A stretch of DNA of 42,994 bases from assembly GCA_030430915.1 (NCBI GenBank), contig JAUIKH010000003.1, positions 1 to 42,994 of the forward strand. The letters run 5' to 3'. Made by a program: the position numbers and the translations under genes. Positions 932 to 8,091 of the stretch are shown here, piece after piece. Each line of letters starts with the position of its first letter. The stretch's first letter is position 1. The DNA comes from a bacterium. GTDB taxonomy: Bacteria > Patescibacteriota > Saccharimonadia > Saccharimonadales > SZUA-47. The notes under the pieces are model-generated. The model searched no databases. It was not told the origin of the DNA and saw only the letters and a program-made list of their open reading frames with translations.

Positions 932-1789
932 ATGGCTAATAAATATCTCAAACGTTTTAATCTTAAAAAGTTCAAAGCCTTGTTTAGGAATAAGAAGTTA
1001 CTTGTAGTGTTTATGGCACTTTTAACTACATTAGTAATCAGCTCAGCAACATATGCACTAGTTAACAATAATACAGAGCCAGAAGTGGTAGAAGTATCTG
1101 AGCCCACAGAACAACAGGAAGAGCCAGAAGTTGAGTCTGAGGAAGAACCACCAGAAACACCTGCTCCAGTAGAGCTTGAACCTACCCCTAAACCCGAGCC
1201 AGAACCGGTCAGCCCATGGCCGGTTACATTCAGCCTAGATCAGGCTTCTAGTTTAACTGTGGTAGTCAATAAAAAGCACAAACTCCCTAGCAATTATGTA
1301 CCGTCATTGACAGGCGTAGCGGGCGGGCAAATGCGTCCAGAAGCAGCTAGCGCTCTAAACACCATGCTTCAAGCTGCCCAAAACGATGGCGTTCCTATGA
1401 AAATCATTAGCTCTTATCGGTCTTATCCTACTCAAGTAAGTACTTACAACAAATGGGTTAGAATTGATGGTCAGGCTCAGGCTGACCGTTCAAGTGCTCG
1501 TCCGGGCCACAGTGAGCACCAGACAGGTTTAGCAGTAGATCTAGGAGTTCCTAATGGTAACTGTGATTTGTTAATATGTTTTGGCTCCACTGCACAAGGT
1601 CAGTGGCTGGCTACATATGCCCAAAAGTATGGATTTATCGTGAGGTATGAGAGCAACACAGAAGCAATTACAGGCTATCAATACGAACCGTGGCATATGC
1701 GCTATTTAGGAGTATCTACTGCAACGGCTGTAAAAAACAGCGGGCAAACCTTAGATCAATACTACGGTGTAGAAGCCGGTGGCTATTAA
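932..1789 (+). CDS. Membrane-anchored D-alanyl-D-alanine carboxypeptidase, VanY/M15B family
   Basis: Predicted zinc peptidase that removes the terminal D-Ala from peptidoglycan stem peptides outside the membrane. The 285 residues are a basic N-terminus, one membrane helix at about 22-44 (LLVVFMALLTTLVI), a Pro/Glu-rich linker at about 48-95, then the catalytic domain. Diagnostic M15 motifs are visible: SSYRSYPTQ near 160, GHSEHQTGLAVD (zinc ligands H196 and D203), and EPWHMRYLG (E252 as base, H255 as third ligand). The linker probably spans part of the envelope. The start is fixed by the TATAAT box just upstream; there is no ribosome binding site. The gene is convergent with typA, with only 13 bases between the two stops. 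Confidence 0.88.
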   Translation: MANKYLKRFNLKKFKALFRNKKLLVVFMALLTTLVISSATYALVNNNTEPEVVEVSEPTEQQEEPEVESEEEPPETPAPVELEPTPKPEPEPVSPWPVTFSLDQASSLTVVVNKKHKLPSNYVPSLTGVAGGQMRPEAASALNTMLQAAQNDGVPMKIISSYRSYPTQVSTYNKWVRIDGQAQADRSSARPGHSEHQTGLAVDLGVPNGNCDLLICFGSTAQGQWLATYAQKYGFIVRYESNTEAITGYQYEPWHMRYLGVSTATAVKNSGQTLDQYYGVEAGGY

Positions 1790-1802: not shown

Positions 1803-3623
1803 TTACGATTTGGCGGCTCGTTTTCTTTTATTATGATCTAACTCTTTTTTTCGTAATCTCAAGTTTTCCGGTGTTACTTCTAATAATTCGTCGTTCTCAA
1901 TAAAATCTAGGCACTGTTCTAGGCTTAGTTTTGTGTATGGAGTCAACTGCACGACTCCATCAGAGCTAGAACTTCGCATATTAGTCAAATGTTTTTCTTT
2001 ACAAACATTAACCTCCAAATCATCACCGCGAGTGTTTAAGCCAACTATTTGGCCAGCGTAAACTGTTTGTCCAGCATCTACGTAGAGCTCGCCTCTACTT
2101 TCTGCATTTTGCAAGGCATACGGTGTAGTTGTTCCGTTTTCCCATGCTACTAATACTCCATTACGCAGCTGGTCTAATGAGCTACTTATCGGTGCGTATG
2201 AGTCCAGTAGAGTATTCATAATAATTGTGCCTTTTGTGGCTGTTAACAACGAGTTTCTAGCTCCTAGCAGCGATCTAGTTGGAATTTTATAAATTAGTTT
2301 AGTAATATTTTTGTCGGTGCTAAACTGGTCCACAAGTTCTGCTTTTCGGCGTCCAAATTCCATTTGCACAGAGCCCACGTGTTCAGCTGGAATTTCCACA
2401 ATTACTTCTTCTACCGGTTCTTTTTCTTGGCCATCTATAGTTTGAGTTACAACTTGAGGTCTACCTACTTCGAATTCAAATCCTTCACGCCTCATGGTTT
2501 CTATCAAAACAGATAAATGTAACTCACCCCTACCAGCAACCAAAAAGCCAATTCCTTGTTCCGTTATCTCTAACCCAACATTTGTTTCTAATTCTTTTTT
2601 CAACCTTTCACCAATTTGTCTAGATGTGTTAAATTCTGCCTCCTTACCTTTAAGCGGACTCGTATTAGGACCCAAATATATTTGTAAAGTTGGTTTTTCT
2701 ACTTCTATTGATGGCAAAGCTTCAGGGTTATCAAGGCTAGTGATCGTGTCACCTATTTTGGCATTAGGCAGACCAGTCACAGAGACAATATCACCTGCAA
2801 CTGCGCTGTCTACCTCAATAAATTTTAAGCCAATTGTTCGATAGATTTTATCTATTTTGCCCTTGTCTATTTGGCTATCATGACATAGAGATACAGGAGA
2901 ATTCTTGCTGACTTTACCCCGCTCTACTCTACCAACAGCATATTTTCCTTGAAAACTATCATATCTAAGCGATGAAACAAGCATCTGTAAATCACCTTCT
3001 GTATCAACATTTGGCCGGCTAACATCTTTAATAATAGACTCAAAAATTACTGTTAAATCTGCGTTCTCATTGATATTTTTTGGGAACTCGCTCCAAGCTT
3101 TGGATTCTCTACCTATAGCGTAATAAATTGGATAATGTAACTGATCTTCGTGTATAGCTAGTTCTAAAAATAGATTGTCTAATTCATCTTTTACTTCATT
3201 AACACGGGCAGCTGGTTTATCAATTTTGTTTATAACGACTATAGGTTTTAGTTCAAGCTGCAAAGCCTTACTGAGCACGAATTTGGTTTGAGGCATTGGG
3301 CCTTCTTGAGCATCAACGACTAAAATGCAGCCATCTGCCATTCTTAGTGTACGTTCAACTTCACCTGAAAAATCTGCATGTCCTGGGGTGTCAATTATAT
3401 TAATCCGATAGTCCTTCCAGTCTACGGCGGTAATTTTGGCTGTTATTGTAATACCACGCTCTTTTTCTTGATCTCCACTGTCCATTATTAATTCTTGACT
3501 CATTTCGGCCTGGTTACTTCTAAAAGTATTAGATAGCTTTAATAAGCCATCAACTAACGTTGTTTTACCATGGTCAACATGAGCAATTATCGCAATGTTG
3601 CGAATATTTTCATTCTCTTTCAT
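1803..3623 (-). CDS. typA: Ribosome-associated GTPase TypA/BipA
   Basis: Translational GTPase related to EF-G and LepA that binds the 70S ribosome and is linked to stress adaptation and ribosome assembly. The 606 residues match the usual length. Visible motifs are G1 AHVDHGKTT, switch [10 protein letters not shown]3 DTPGHADF and G4 NKIDKP (132-137). The G5 position, usually ASA in this family, reads YAIGRES near 168, so the Ser-Ala is not conserved. The C-terminal domain includes the [10 protein letters not shown] and [10 protein letters not shown] segments. The ATG at 3623 has no Shine-Dalgarno; an extended -10 box lies 11 bases upstream. It is divergent from the glycosyltransferase operon. 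Confidence 0.95.
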
Positions 3624-3741: not shown

Positions 3742-4947
3742 TTGAAAGTATTAATGCTCGGTTGGGAGCTGCCTCCTCACCATGTTGGGGGTATGGGGGT
3801 TGCATGTTATCAAATGTGTAAACAACTAGCCAATACCGGTGTTGATATTGATTTCGTTTTGCCCTACACTGCGGATTTTAATATTCCATTTATGAACATT
3901 ATTCCAACAAGTGATCGATCATATGAGGATTTAAAATTTGCTGGTGGTGTATATGATGCAAAAAACTTTGGCACAAGAAAATCAAATGCATTGAATCAAG
4001 CTCTAGACTTATCTAAACAGCATAATAAATACGCTTTATCTGTTGAGAGCATAACAAAGTATGCTGAGTTCGATATAATTCATGCTCATGAATGGTTAAC
4101 TTTTAAAGCTGCGATGGCTGCAAAAGCTGTAAGCGGAAAGCCAATGATAGCTCATGTTCATGCTACACAATTTGACCAATCTGCTGGAGGCTATGGAAAC
4201 CCTGAAGTACGTGAAATCGAATATGCTGGATTAATGATGGCAGATGCTGTATTTTCTGTAAGTCAACATACTAAAGATGTACTAATTCGTGAGTACGGAA
4301 TACCTGAATCGAAAATACATGTTGTTCACAATAGCATGGAGATTAACCCAGAAGTAAATGAAGCTAGTAATTTATATAGATATCTAGAGATAATGAAGTC
4401 CAAAGGTTATAAAGTTGTAGTTAATTCAGGACGTAAAACTATTCAAAAAGGGCTTACTCATTTACTAGATACAGCTAAAAGAGTTGTGGAGAAAAACCCT
4501 AAAGTCTTATTTTTATTAGTTGGAGGCGGAGAGCAAGAAGAAGAATTATTAGAAAAAGCGGCTTATTTGGGCATATCAAAGAATGTTATATTTGCAGGCT
4601 GGATGAATGGCACTGGCAAGGCTTGGCGAGATTCATTCAAGATTGGAGATATTTTTGTAATGCCTTCAGTTTCAGAGCCCTTCGGATTAGCAGCACTAGA
4701 AGCAGTTGGCTATGGTACACCTACTCTAGTTTCTAGACAATCGGGAGTATCTGAAGTTTTAAGAAATTCTTTAGTATGTGACTATTGGGATACAGACATG
4801 ATGGCAGATATGATTTTAAATGTTGTAGAAAATGATAGTTTGAGGTCGGAGTTATGGCAAAATGCATATAACGAATATAAAGATTTGTCTTGGGAAAAAT
4901 CCGCAAATAAAATGAATGGTCATTACTGTTCCTTGGTCGGGGTTTAG
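3742..4947 (+). CDS. GT4-type glycosyltransferase, glycogen-synthase-like
   Basis: Predicted retaining GT-B glycosyltransferase using a nucleotide sugar; the context suggests an alpha-glucan as product. The 401 residues start with MKVLMLGWELPPHHVGGMG, the Gly-rich N-terminal motif of the GT4/GT5 superfamily. HAHEWLTF lies near 115, the basic NSGRKTIQKGL motif near 232, and the C-terminal EPFGLAALE (EX7E) motif near 314-322. There is no signal peptide, so it is cytoplasmic. The start is TTG, supported by AGAGGT. It is followed after 2 bases by the GH57 gene and then GH15, clearly one operon. Donor and acceptor cannot be told from sequence; a lipid- or polysaccharide-directed GT4 is the alternative. 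Confidence 0.85.
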   Translation: MKVLMLGWELPPHHVGGMGVACYQMCKQLANTGVDIDFVLPYTADFNIPFMNIIPTSDRSYEDLKFAGGVYDAKNFGTRKSNALNQALDLSKQHNKYALSVESITKYAEFDIIHAHEWLTFKAAMAAKAVSGKPMIAHVHATQFDQSAGGYGNPEVREIEYAGLMMADAVFSVSQHTKDVLIREYGIPESKIHVVHNSMEINPEVNEASNLYRYLEIMKSKGYKVVVNSGRKTIQKGLTHLLDTAKRVVEKNPKVLFLLVGGGEQEEELLEKAAYLGISKNVIFAGWMNGTGKAWRDSFKIGDIFVMPSVSEPFGLAALEAVGYGTPTLVSRQSGVSEVLRNSLVCDYWDTDMMADMILNVVENDSLRSELWQNAYNEYKDLSWEKSANKMNGHYCSLVGV

Positions 4948-4949
4948 CT

Positions 4950-6161
4950 ATGTCAAAGCAAATCGTTCTTTATCTACATGCTCATCAGCCCTTCAGGATT
5001 AAACCGTATTCAGTGTTTGATGCTGGTATTGATCACATGTATTTTAACGAAGAAGCGGATAATAATGAGGCAAATAATAGATTTATTGTAAATAAAGTTT
5101 CCGATAAGTCTTATATGCCAACAAATGAAGTACTAATTAGATTATTAAATAGGCATCCCGAGTTTAAATTGAGTTTGTCAATCACCGGAACACTGATTGA
5201 GCAATTAGAGATGTGGAGGCCAGATGTACTGGAAAGCTTCAAGATGCTAGTAGGTACAGGACAGGTAGAAATATTAGCTGAGACATATTATCACTCTTTG
5301 GCGTTCTTTTATTCCCGAAGCGAGTTTGAGCGACAAGTAGAAAAACATAAAAGAAAAATTTATGAAGTATTTGGTTTAACTCCAACAGCATTTAGAAATA
5401 CCGAGCTAGCTTACAATAACGACTTAGCTTATTGGGCGGATAAAGCAGGCTATAAAGCAATAATAGCTGAAGGTTGGGATTCTGTTCTTGGCTGGAGATC
5501 TTCGAATTACATGTACAGGCCAACTCATACTGAAAATATTAAATTACTATTAAAAAACTATAAATTAAGTGATGATGTAGCCTTTAGATTTTCTAATCAA
5601 GGTTGGTCTGAATGGCCATTAACTGCTGAAAAGTACTGTCATTGGATAAATGAAAGTAATAAAAATGATGAAATAATTAATCTATTTAAAGATTATGAAA
5701 CTTATGGAGAGCATCAGTGGGCAGACACTGGAATATTTGATTTTCTTGAAGCGTTGCCAGCAGAATGGTTAAAAACACCAGGCAATGGATTTAAAAAAGT
5801 ATCAGAAGCAGCAGAAATGTTTGAAGCCAAAGATAGGGTTGACATGCCTCATACTGTGACGTGGGCTGATAATGAGAGGGATCTTAGTGCCTGGTTAGGA
5901 AATCCAATGCAAGTTGATGCTATAAACACCCTGTATTCAATGCAAGATAAAGTTTTGGCTACAAATGATAAAGAGATAATAGCTGACTGGGAAAAACTAC
6001 AGACGAGCGACCACTTCTACTATATGTGTACAAAATGGTTTAATGATGGAGATGTACATGCTTACTTTAGCCCTTATGATTCACCCTATAAAGCTTTTAT
6101 GTATTTCATGAACACGTTTAGAGATTTGCAGGCAAGATTAGCGCAGAAAGGAACAATGTAG
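4950..6161 (+). CDS. Glycoside hydrolase family 57, alpha-amylase type
   Basis: Predicted retaining alpha-glucan hydrolase or transferase of family GH57, cytoplasmic, 403 residues with no signal peptide. GH57 motifs in order: HAHQPFR near residue 10 (motif 1 HQP), GQVEILAETYYHS near 104-116 (motif 2), FRNTELAYNN near 147-156 with the probable nucleophile Glu (motif 3), and the WADTGIFDFLEAL region near 260 with the probable acid/base Asp (motif 4). The length fits alpha-amylase-type members better than the longer branching enzymes. It starts 2 bases after the glycosyltransferase stop and ends 1 base before the GH15 start. A 4-alpha-glucanotransferase activity cannot be excluded. Confidence 0.85.
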   Translation: MSKQIVLYLHAHQPFRIKPYSVFDAGIDHMYFNEEADNNEANNRFIVNKVSDKSYMPTNEVLIRLLNRHPEFKLSLSITGTLIEQLEMWRPDVLESFKMLVGTGQVEILAETYYHSLAFFYSRSEFERQVEKHKRKIYEVFGLTPTAFRNTELAYNNDLAYWADKAGYKAIIAEGWDSVLGWRSSNYMYRPTHTENIKLLLKNYKLSDDVAFRFSNQGWSEWPLTAEKYCHWINESNKNDEIINLFKDYETYGEHQWADTGIFDFLEALPAEWLKTPGNGFKKVSEAAEMFEAKDRVDMPHTVTWADNERDLSAWLGNPMQVDAINTLYSMQDKVLATNDKEIIADWEKLQTSDHFYYMCTKWFNDGDVHAYFSPYDSPYKAFMYFMNTFRDLQARLAQKGTM

Positions 6162-6162
6162 G

Positions 6163-8091
6163 GTGGCTCGAAGTGCAATTTTGGGTAATGGTGGACTAGC
6201 TGTCGGAATTGATGAAAATGGACTGGTTCATGATTTTTACTATCCATACGTAGGTTTAGAGAATTTGAACTCTGCAAGAATATCTAATCACAAGATTGGA
6301 GTATGGGTGGATGGTGAATTTTCTTGGTTAGATAATGGTGACTGGAATAATTCAATTGATATGGACGAATTTATGATAGTAAATTCAATACATATAAACA
6401 CGAGACTAGGCATTAAACTATCACTAAAATCATTCGTGGATCACGAATTTGATGCATTTATACGTAGTGTTTCTGTTGAGAATATGTCAGTTGCTGATAA
6501 AAAAGAAGTTAGAGTATTTTTTCATCAAGTTTTTCAAATTAGTAGCGGTGGAAGAGCTGATACAGCTCTATATTCACCTGATGGACATTACATACTAGAT
6601 TATAAAGGAAGATGCTGTCTGCTAATAAAAGGAAAAACTGAGAGTGGATCAGACTTTGATCAATACGCTGTTGGAAACTTTGGTATGGAGGGCAAAGAAG
6701 GCACTTATAAGGATGCAGAAGACGGTGAACTTTCAATGAGCAATGTTGAGCATGCAGGTGTGGATTCCGTAATAAGGTTTAAAGTAGATATTGAGCCAAA
6801 AAGCACGAAACTAATAAATTACTGGGTTATTGCTGCTGATTCACAGTACGAAGCTAGAAAAATAAACTTATCGGTTATAGACAAGATACCTGAGCGTATA
6901 ACAAAGCAGGAAGTATACTTTAGAAACTGGCTAAGTCCTGCAAAAAACCAGATAGATAAACTGGAAGAAAAGCACAAAAAAATTCTAATATATTCATTAT
7001 TAACAATAAAAGCTCATACTGATAAAAGGGGTGGAGTTATAGCATCATGTGATTCGTCAATATATAATTACGGTAGAGACTACTATAGTTATGTTTGGCC
7101 AAGAGACGGAGCGTTTGCTTTATGGCCTTTGATCAGACTCGGGATGTTCGAGGAAGCTAAACAATTCTTTTTATTCTGTGCCGATATTATGTCACCATAC
7201 GGCTACATGCTGCACAAGTATCAGCCGGATAAAGCGATAGGCAGTACTTGGCATCCGTTATTACACAATAACCACGCAGAATTAGCTATACAAGAAGACG
7301 AAACAGCATTAATTATTTTTATGATTGGTGAATATTTAGATTATTCTGATGATTTAGACTTCGTTAAGTCTTTATATGCAAAAATGATCCAACCTATGGC
7401 AAACTTTATGACTAAATTTATTGATGAACAAACTAACTTGCCACATGCTAGCTATGACTTATGGGAGCAGAAATTTTTGACAACCACCTTTAGCACAGCA
7501 GCTACTTATAAATCACTTGTTGTTGCATCCAAAATTGCTAATAAATTGAACCATAAAGAAGACTCTGAATTATGGGCAAAAACTGCAATAAACATTAAAA
7601 AGCAAGTAAACGCTTTTTATGATATTGACAGACAATCATTTAGAAAAGGATTTTTATTGTCTGAAGAAAATTCGTTAAAATTTGATAATACACTAGATAT
7701 TTCTAGTTTTTACGCAAGTTTCACTTTCGATTTTGTATCTTCTAAGGATCAAATACTCAATACGGCAAAAAGGATTGAAGACGAATTGTTAGACATATCC
7801 CCTTCTGGCGGAGTTTGTCGTTATGAGTACGATGATTACTTCAAGAATGAGAATAATCCTTACAAAGGAAACCCCTGGATAATAACTACTCTATGGATGT
7901 CTCAGTACTACAATCGAGTAAAAGAAACGGATAAATCTATAAAGTATTTAAACTGGGCAATTGAAAAGTCAAGCAAATCAGGTGCATTATCCGAGCAAGT
8001 CAATACTGTAAATAGTTCTAGCGTTGGGGTTACTCCACTTGTATGGAGTCACGCTGAGCTTGTAAATACAATACTTGATATATACCAATAA
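6163..8091 (+). CDS. Glycoside hydrolase family 15, glucoamylase or related alpha-glucosidase
   Basis: Predicted inverting exo-hydrolase releasing glucose from alpha-glucans. The 642 residues comprise an N-terminal beta-sandwich (about 1-270) and an (alpha/alpha)6 catalytic barrel. The barrel shows GRDYYSYVWPRDGAFALWP, then QEDETALI, YDLWEQKFLTTTF (probable general-acid Glu) and GALSEQVN (probable general-base Glu) followed by TPLVWSHAE. The start is GTG with an AGAAAGGA ribosome binding site in the end of the GH57 gene, one base after its stop, so translation is probably coupled. No signal peptide is present, so it likely acts on intracellular glucan. Trehalase- or dextranase-type specificity within GH15 is possible. 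Confidence 0.88.
   Translation: MARSAILGNGGLAVGIDENGLVHDFYYPYVGLENLNSARISNHKIGVWVDGEFSWLDNGDWNNSIDMDEFMIVNSIHINTRLGIKLSLKSFVDHEFDAFIRSVSVENMSVADKKEVRVFFHQVFQISSGGRADTALYSPDGHYILDYKGRCCLLIKGKTESGSDFDQYAVGNFGMEGKEGTYKDAEDGELSMSNVEHAGVDSVIRFKVDIEPKSTKLINYWVIAADSQYEARKINLSVIDKIPERITKQEVYFRNWLSPAKNQIDKLEEKHKKILIYSLLTIKAHTDKRGGVIASCDSSIYNYGRDYYSYVWPRDGAFALWPLIRLGMFEEAKQFFLFCADIMSPYGYMLHKYQPDKAIGSTWHPLLHNNHAELAIQEDETALIIFMIGEYLDYSDDLDFVKSLYAKMIQPMANFMTKFIDEQTNLPHASYDLWEQKFLTTTFSTAATYKSLVVASKIANKLNHKEDSELWAKTAINIKKQVNAFYDIDRQSFRKGFLLSEENSLKFDNTLDISSFYASFTFDFVSSKDQILNTAKRIEDELLDISPSGGVCRYEYDDYFKNENNPYKGNPWIITTLWMSQYYNRVKETDKSIKYLNWAIEKSSKSGALSEQVNTVNSSSVGVTPLVWSHAELVNTILDIYQ

Follow-up and report, generated by a model that had tools for sequence, protein, structure and literature searches.

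How might a tiny bacterium store and reuse glucose without the standard glgC, glgB and glgP genes, and did the means come from archaea? We addressed this question for an operon in a Saccharimonadales genome (GCA_030430915.1, contig JAUIKH010000003.1), which encodes a GT4 glycosyltransferase, a GH57 glycoside hydrolase family protein and a GH15 family protein in that order. The whole stretch of 42,994 nucleotides analyzed is referred to as the window. The original prediction was of intracellular storage and use of a glycogen-like glucan, in an arrangement resembling an archaeal one and possibly transferred from archaea. The genes, their order and conservation, the catalytic residues and the missing classical genes were observed directly, and the folds were predicted. 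The arrangement GT4-GH57-GH15 represents a Patescibacteria variant of the GT4-GH57 pair found widely in bacteria, with GH15 replacing GH133. We propose that it probably forms a minimal intracellular storage module for a glycogen-like α-glucan, and by the best trees the operon looks bacterial rather than archaeal.

The GT4-GH57 pair is widespread

The three genes are separated by gaps of 2 bases (GT4/GH57) and 1 base (GH57/GH15), and the encoded proteins matched Pfam models above the cut-off (Glycos_transf_1/Glyco_transf_4 for GT4; Glyco_hydro_57, PF03065, 240.5 bits; Glyco_hydro_15, PF00723, 104 bits). No signal peptide was evident by eye in the three sequences, no predictor being run, and the proteins look cytoplasmic because the domain sequence starts right at the N-terminus. 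The predicted tight coupling, without evident signal peptides, is real and exact to the base, with the catalytic residues kept.

We surveyed 294 genomes of the class, counting GH57 matches at E 1e-10. GH57 was present in 216, and is thus not rare; outside the order only two genomes (G002 and G028) gave matches, both weak. GH15 was present in 130 genomes, each of which also carries GH57, and lay downstream of it on the same strand in 121 of the 122 genomes with both positions listed (median gap of 28 bases); in the exception, G105, they lie on separate contigs. The order GT4-GH57-GH15 was kept in 30/30 class loci examined, a sample biased towards the nearest relatives of the window, since the loci most similar to it were taken. 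Seven loci without an adjoining GH15 (L301-L305, L214 and L220; five genome stretches and two named records from genera g9 and g18 of family f2) kept GT4-GH57, with no other sought glucan gene adjoining. A PF03065 search of 379 genomes of the phylum matched 124, and GT4 stood beside GH57 in 29 of 30 loci drawn from these matches, the window's own locus among them. Other Patescibacteria (for example G336:C7, G437:C19 and G633:C27) carry neighboring pairs of more distant GH57 genes in several families, which constitute another GH57 system.

Scanning one genome per species for the region-5 motif of GH57 extended the comparison to other phyla. Of the 116 loci found, 80 were listed, without evident ordering by relatedness, and 79 of these contained GH57 itself. 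GT4 was directly upstream of GH57 on the same strand, as in the window, in 52 of the 59 listed loci that include 1 kb or more of upstream sequence, spanning many bacterial phyla; the other seven comprised five Planctomycetota, one Bacteroidota and Methanosalsum. GH133 was near GH57 in 30/80 listed loci (Bacteroidota 19, Planctomycetota 4, Cloacimonadota 3, Thermodesulfobacteriota 2, Myxococcota 1, Methanobacteriota 1), in none of the listed loci titled Patescibacteria, and not next to the operon genes of the window, no genome-wide GH133 search having been made. GH15 directly followed GH57 in 13 listed loci, eleven of them titled Patescibacteria, the remaining two being Methanosalsum and L245, an untitled bacterium with a GH57 that clusters with that of a Saccharibacterium (support 99). 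A PF00723 search covered 42 of the 80 listed genomes, picked to be mostly non-Patescibacteria. GH133, GT4 and GH57 are named as predicted α-glucan enzymes of Segatella copri in an extract of PMC11784079.

This distribution bears on two other functions. The operon could be purely catabolic, with GH57 and GH15 degrading imported or host maltodextrin or glycogen to glucose, and GT4 in some other or accessory role. The nearest solved structure to GH57 is a hydrolase, GH15 glucoamylases are degradative, and an extract of an activated-sludge study (PMC10031880) has glycogen degradation steps annotated in human-associated Saccharimonadia. However, GT4 adjoins GH57 in 52/59 listed loci, and also where GH15 is not a neighbor (the seven class loci above). 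Because the adjacency persists without GH15, the synthase-like GT4 is the fixed companion of GH57, with the exo-hydrolase optional, and we consider a purely catabolic role unlikely. Alternatively, GT4 might make a surface or lipid-linked glycan that is edited by GH57 and GH15. The GT4 family is functionally broad, and the structural neighbors of this member include MshA, BshA, HepE, PimB' and TarM. Against this, no polysaccharide-export or lipid-carrier gene touches the operon, which is flanked by TypA upstream and tRNAs downstream, and no signal peptides are evident. Since GT4 is in the constant company of α-glucan hydrolases across phyla, a role in surface sugars is quite improbable.

Features of the three enzymes

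The GT4 contains the motifs HAHEW (114), GRKTIQKG (230) and EPFGLAALE (312), which fall within conserved blocks of our GT4 alignment A3 and which we take to resemble glycogen-synthase signatures. The window protein shares 32–50% identity with the 30 other rows of A3, and its TTG start agrees with the homologues, the majority of which likewise start M-x-V/I-L. The best NCBIfam match was glgA_Coryne (TIGR02149, 108.8 bits versus a cut-off of 302.4), which does not place the protein in the GlgM/glgA_Coryne subfamily, and the match to the GT5 synthase model TIGR02095 was 65.3 bits versus a cut-off of 328.45, with no genome-wide search for GT5 being made. The predicted model (predicted local distance difference test score, pLDDT, of 89.4) has a GT-B fold, with the highest Z-score to MshA (40.7). 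Among the listed structures, sequence identity was highest to P. abyssi GlgA, a glycogen synthase (25%), and GlgM (24%).

The GH57 belongs to its family by the PF03065 match and the catalytic Glu/Asp pair, E152 and D248, both invariant in 39/39 alignment rows. Its model (pLDDT of 89.3) was closest to the Aquifex amylopullulanase (Z-score of 33.1, root-mean-square deviation of 3.0, 343 residues, 19% identity), with Z-scores of 26–28 to branching-enzyme structures. The protein may act in branching, as a transferase or in debranching hydrolysis. We lean towards a biosynthetic role because a Sulfolobus GH57-null mutant has reduced glycogen, according to an extract of a Chem Rev review (PMC11046441). 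In two Bacteroidota relatives the catalytic pair is incomplete: the GH57 proteins of Parabacteroides (L062:5998-7287) and Prevotella (L063:6001-7158) lack the region-4 Asp, and that of Prevotella also lacks the region-3 Glu. The Parabacteroides gene still adjoins GT4 despite the missing Asp.

The GH15 belongs to its family by PF00723 and its Glu pair. The motifs DLWE (432) and LSEQ (609) align with those of PDB 27xj and presumably hold the catalytic residues. The protein scored 256 bits against the oligosaccharide amylase model TIGR01577, under the cut-off of 820.7 (Methanosalsum 601, Paenibacillus 579), and 72–85 bits against the trehalase (TreH) models. From these scores a glucoamylase-type enzyme is more likely than a trehalase. 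The same comparison bears on trehalose metabolism, with GT4 acting as TreT and GH15 as a trehalase: the TreT fold is similar to that of the GT4 (6zj4, Z-score of 34.1) and archaeal GH15 trehalases exist. Nevertheless, TreT is 12–13% identical to the GT4 model compared to 24–25% for GlgM and glycogen synthase, the GH15 matches the amylase model better than the TreH models, and such a route has no place for GH57, leaving the idea barely credible. The trehalose and GlgM readings, together with GlgE, were rejected on scores or on the missing GH13.

Glucan genes in the genome and the class

The genome consists of 869,193 bases in 63 contigs and is 99.1% complete, with the window as contig 44. Deposited members of its order go by the name Candidatus Saccharibacteria; one genome of the order, G095, has a GH57 and a GT4 identical to those of the Candidatus Saccharibacteria record UBA5148 (L018 and L259). 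Genome-wide searches found no GlgC (TIGR02091), no GH13 protein (PF00128) and no glycogen phosphorylase (GlgP). The glgB and glgC genes reported to be missing from the vicinity of the operon are therefore missing throughout, and glgP with them. The classical branching enzyme and GlgE are both GH13 enzymes and are thus also missing. The sole pyrophosphorylase (PF00483) is GalU-like (298.6 bits, compared to 21.7 for the GlgC model), and a single ROK-family kinase was found genome-wide (81 bits against the ROK glucokinase model, under the cut-off of 260).

Across the 294 class genomes, GlgC never scored above its curated cut-off. GH13 was found in 107 genomes, and 123 of the 216 GH57 carriers are without it. 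A phosphoglucomutase domain was present in 148 genomes and missing from 146.

A proposed route for glucan storage and reuse

We infer the polymer, its donor, each enzymatic activity and the direction of flux as follows. GalU, encoded elsewhere in the genome, would supply UDP-glucose, which we take as the donor because GalU is the only PF00483 protein found. GT4 would polymerize an α-1,4-glucan from it, GH57 would cut and re-join or branch the chains, and GH15 would trim the glucan back to glucose. The ROK-family sugar kinase, a candidate glucokinase, would then feed the glucose back into glycolysis. The storage and use of a glycogen-like glucan in the original prediction gains indirect support, from a module that occurs without GlgC, GH13 GlgB or GlgP, with its enzymatic activities remaining putative.

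Precedents exist for several of these steps in extracts of published work. Prevotella bryantii makes glycogen via a UDP-glucose route (PMC4432691), and another Prevotella (L063) has relatives of the GT4 and GH57. The review PMC11046441 proposes an archaeal GT4 as an uncharacterized glycogen synthase and a GH57 amylase as a possible missing branching enzyme; the Sulfolobus GH57-null mutant loses glycogen, and GH15 acts catabolically. In the Saccharibacterium TM7x, glucose is said to be possibly stored in glycogen, and labeling found glucose uptake and glucose-derived label in biomass, with glycogen itself not shown (PMC12815258).

Several observations weigh against a storage module. The GT4 stayed under all the curated family cut-offs shown, and in fold it resembles MshA, sucrose-phosphate synthase and BshA just as closely as GlgM or GlgA. 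The GH57 lacks the branching-enzyme fingerprints published for region I (HxHLP) and region IV (ELF(Y)GHW; PMC11206854), and has HAHQP and DYETYGEH instead. The GalU match is below its own cut-off of 326.8 bits, and the phosphoglucomutase domain PGM_PMM_I (PF02878) was not found in the genome, nor in 110 of the 216 GH57-bearing class genomes. GalU needs glucose-1-phosphate, and the supply of this substrate is the gap in the proposed route. In addition, we know of no activity for any close relative of the three enzymes.

More tentatively, GT4-GH57 may be a two-gene unit of UDP-glucose glycogen synthesis in its own right, with GT4 forming an unrecognized family of glycogen synthases and the short GH57 serving as a dedicated branching enzyme. 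It would then span bacterial phyla, Patescibacteria and DPANN, replacing GlgA and GlgB in genomes without GH13. Roles of this kind have already been proposed for archaea only, in the extract of PMC11046441. What is new here is GT4-GH57 as a broad bacterial unit, the swap of the third gene in Patescibacteria and the many carriers without GlgC and GH13. No paper describing a GT4-GH57-GH15 operon was found in one library searched for Saccharibacteria or Patescibacteria with glycogen, GH57, GT4 or branching enzyme. If correct, this gene pair, present across bacteria, would represent a way of making glycogen that standard annotation misses, and a probably host-dependent, tiny bacterium would have a stripped-down kit for glucose storage and reuse. 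The class genomes with GT4-GH57 and no GH13 would offer a clean setting for asking whether this GH57 is the missing branching enzyme postulated for archaea.

Descent of the operon

We built trees of all three proteins. Locus L058, which duplicates the window's own locus, and sequences below 330 amino acids were removed beforehand, leaving 135/148 GH57, 109/118 GT4 and 55/60 GH15 sequences. From the GH15 tree 15 further rows were removed, mostly close Saccharibacteria copies, plus L042 and the partial L205. A 75-row GH57 tree (a quick tree with Shimodaira-Hasegawa-like approximate likelihood ratio supports, SH-aLRT) and a 41-row GT4 tree are hand-picked selections.

In the 75-row GH57 tree, the Saccharibacteria form a clade (100) within Patescibacteria (95, 99) within bacteria, and the three core archaeal sequences (Methanosalsum, Thermofilales and Aenigmarchaeota) are separated from all 72 remaining rows (97). 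In the 135-row tree, Saccharibacteria are likewise nested among bacteria, including other Patescibacteria. For GT4, the Saccharibacteria are one clade (100) among Patescibacteria, with a Woesearchaeon as the single archaeal row. For GH15, they are again one clade (89/100), joined by other Patescibacteria, five Planctomycetota and a Thermocladium fragment (82/77), with Methanosalsum, Aenigmarchaeota and Paenibacillus outside. In the assembly, the Thermocladium GH15 (L329, L330) is spread across several reading frames.

An acquisition from archaea draws on the Methanosalsum cluster, which holds a comparable set of genes, and on the place of the Thermocladium fragment beside Patescibacteria and Planctomycetota GH15. 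Furthermore, forcing Saccharibacteria and core archaea into one GH57 clade was not rejected by the approximately unbiased (AU) test (p 0.153). The GT4 AU test against Methanosalsum (p 0.70) is uninformative because the Methanosalsum row has a branch length of 10. On the other side, all three proteins nest among bacterial and Patescibacteria sequences in the best trees. The window GH15 is nearest to Planctomycetota GH15, to which it is 30–34% identical over 99% of its length, and is 32% identical to the Thermocladium fragment over 42%, compared to 22% for Methanosalsum and Paenibacillus; the GT4 of the archaeal cluster is also 22% identical, well under the A3 rows. The resemblance to an archaeal arrangement thus extends to the gene set of Methanosalsum and its close GH57, not to its GT4 and GH15, and the proposed transfer from archaea is very improbable, with the GH57 AU test not decisive.

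The GH57 sequences of a Nanoarchaeon and a Woesearchaeon (L196 and L238, with GT4 nearby) fall with two Patescibacteria (92) in the 75-row tree, a grouping that suggests exchange between the ultra-small Patescibacteria and DPANN radiations. With Patescibacteria-like GH57 in these two DPANN archaea, a transfer, if any, may have gone from Patescibacteria to archaea.

Surroundings of the operon

The coordinates of the operon and its neighbors are collected in Table 1. A scan for promoters showed no signal beyond chance (23 hits versus 21.2 expected). The VanY-type carboxypeptidase near the operon is preceded by a hydrophobic stretch and a Pro/Glu-rich linker.

Table 1 Positions of the operon genes and neighboring features in the window.
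Feature	Position	Strand	Remarks
GT4 retaining glycosyltransferase, proposed UDP-glucose-dependent α-1,4-glucan (glycogen) synthase	3742-4947	+	401 amino acids, TTG start; Pfam
GH57, proposed glucan-remodeling enzyme (branching/transferase, or hydrolase)	4950-6161	+	403 amino acids, ATG start; Pfam
GH15, proposed intracellular glucoamylase releasing glucose	6163-8091	+	642 amino acids, GTG start; Pfam
typA (TypA)	1803-3623	-	divergent, upstream of operon
VanY-type D-Ala-D-Ala carboxypeptidase	932-1789		near operon
Three tRNA genes			downstream of operon

Comparison with known systems

We compared the operon to known glucan systems. The Parabacteroides distasonis cluster GH133-GT4-GH57 (UNS60_RS09490-09480, L062, an annotated plasmid record) has adjacent GT4 and GH57 in the same order as the window, with a GH57 that is 41% identical. 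It differs in having GH133 upstream instead of GH15 downstream, and in the absent region-4 catalytic Asp of its GH57. The Methanosalsum natronophilum cluster GT4-GH133-CorA-GH57-GH57-GH15 (L335) shares GT4, GH57 (44% identical) and GH15, but contains an additional GH133 and a second GH57, and its GT4 and GH15 are the distant ones described above.

Sulfolobus acidocaldarius, likened here by description rather than sequence from the extract of PMC11046441, similarly combines a GH57 amylase-like enzyme with a catabolic GH15, has no classical branching enzyme and does not depend crucially on a phosphorylase; unlike the window, it uses a GT5 synthase and has GH133. The Aquifex aeolicus GH57 amylopullulanase (9kyq, 9ihu) shares the fold of the window GH57, and its E256 and D352, named as mutated in the PDB titles, are separated by 96 residues, the distance also found between E152 and D248, although the chain is longer and the identity low. 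Finally, the classical GlgC-GlgA-GlgB-GlgP pathway would lead to the same proposed product, whereas this genome is without GlgC, GH13 GlgB and GlgP and has GT4 in place of GT5.

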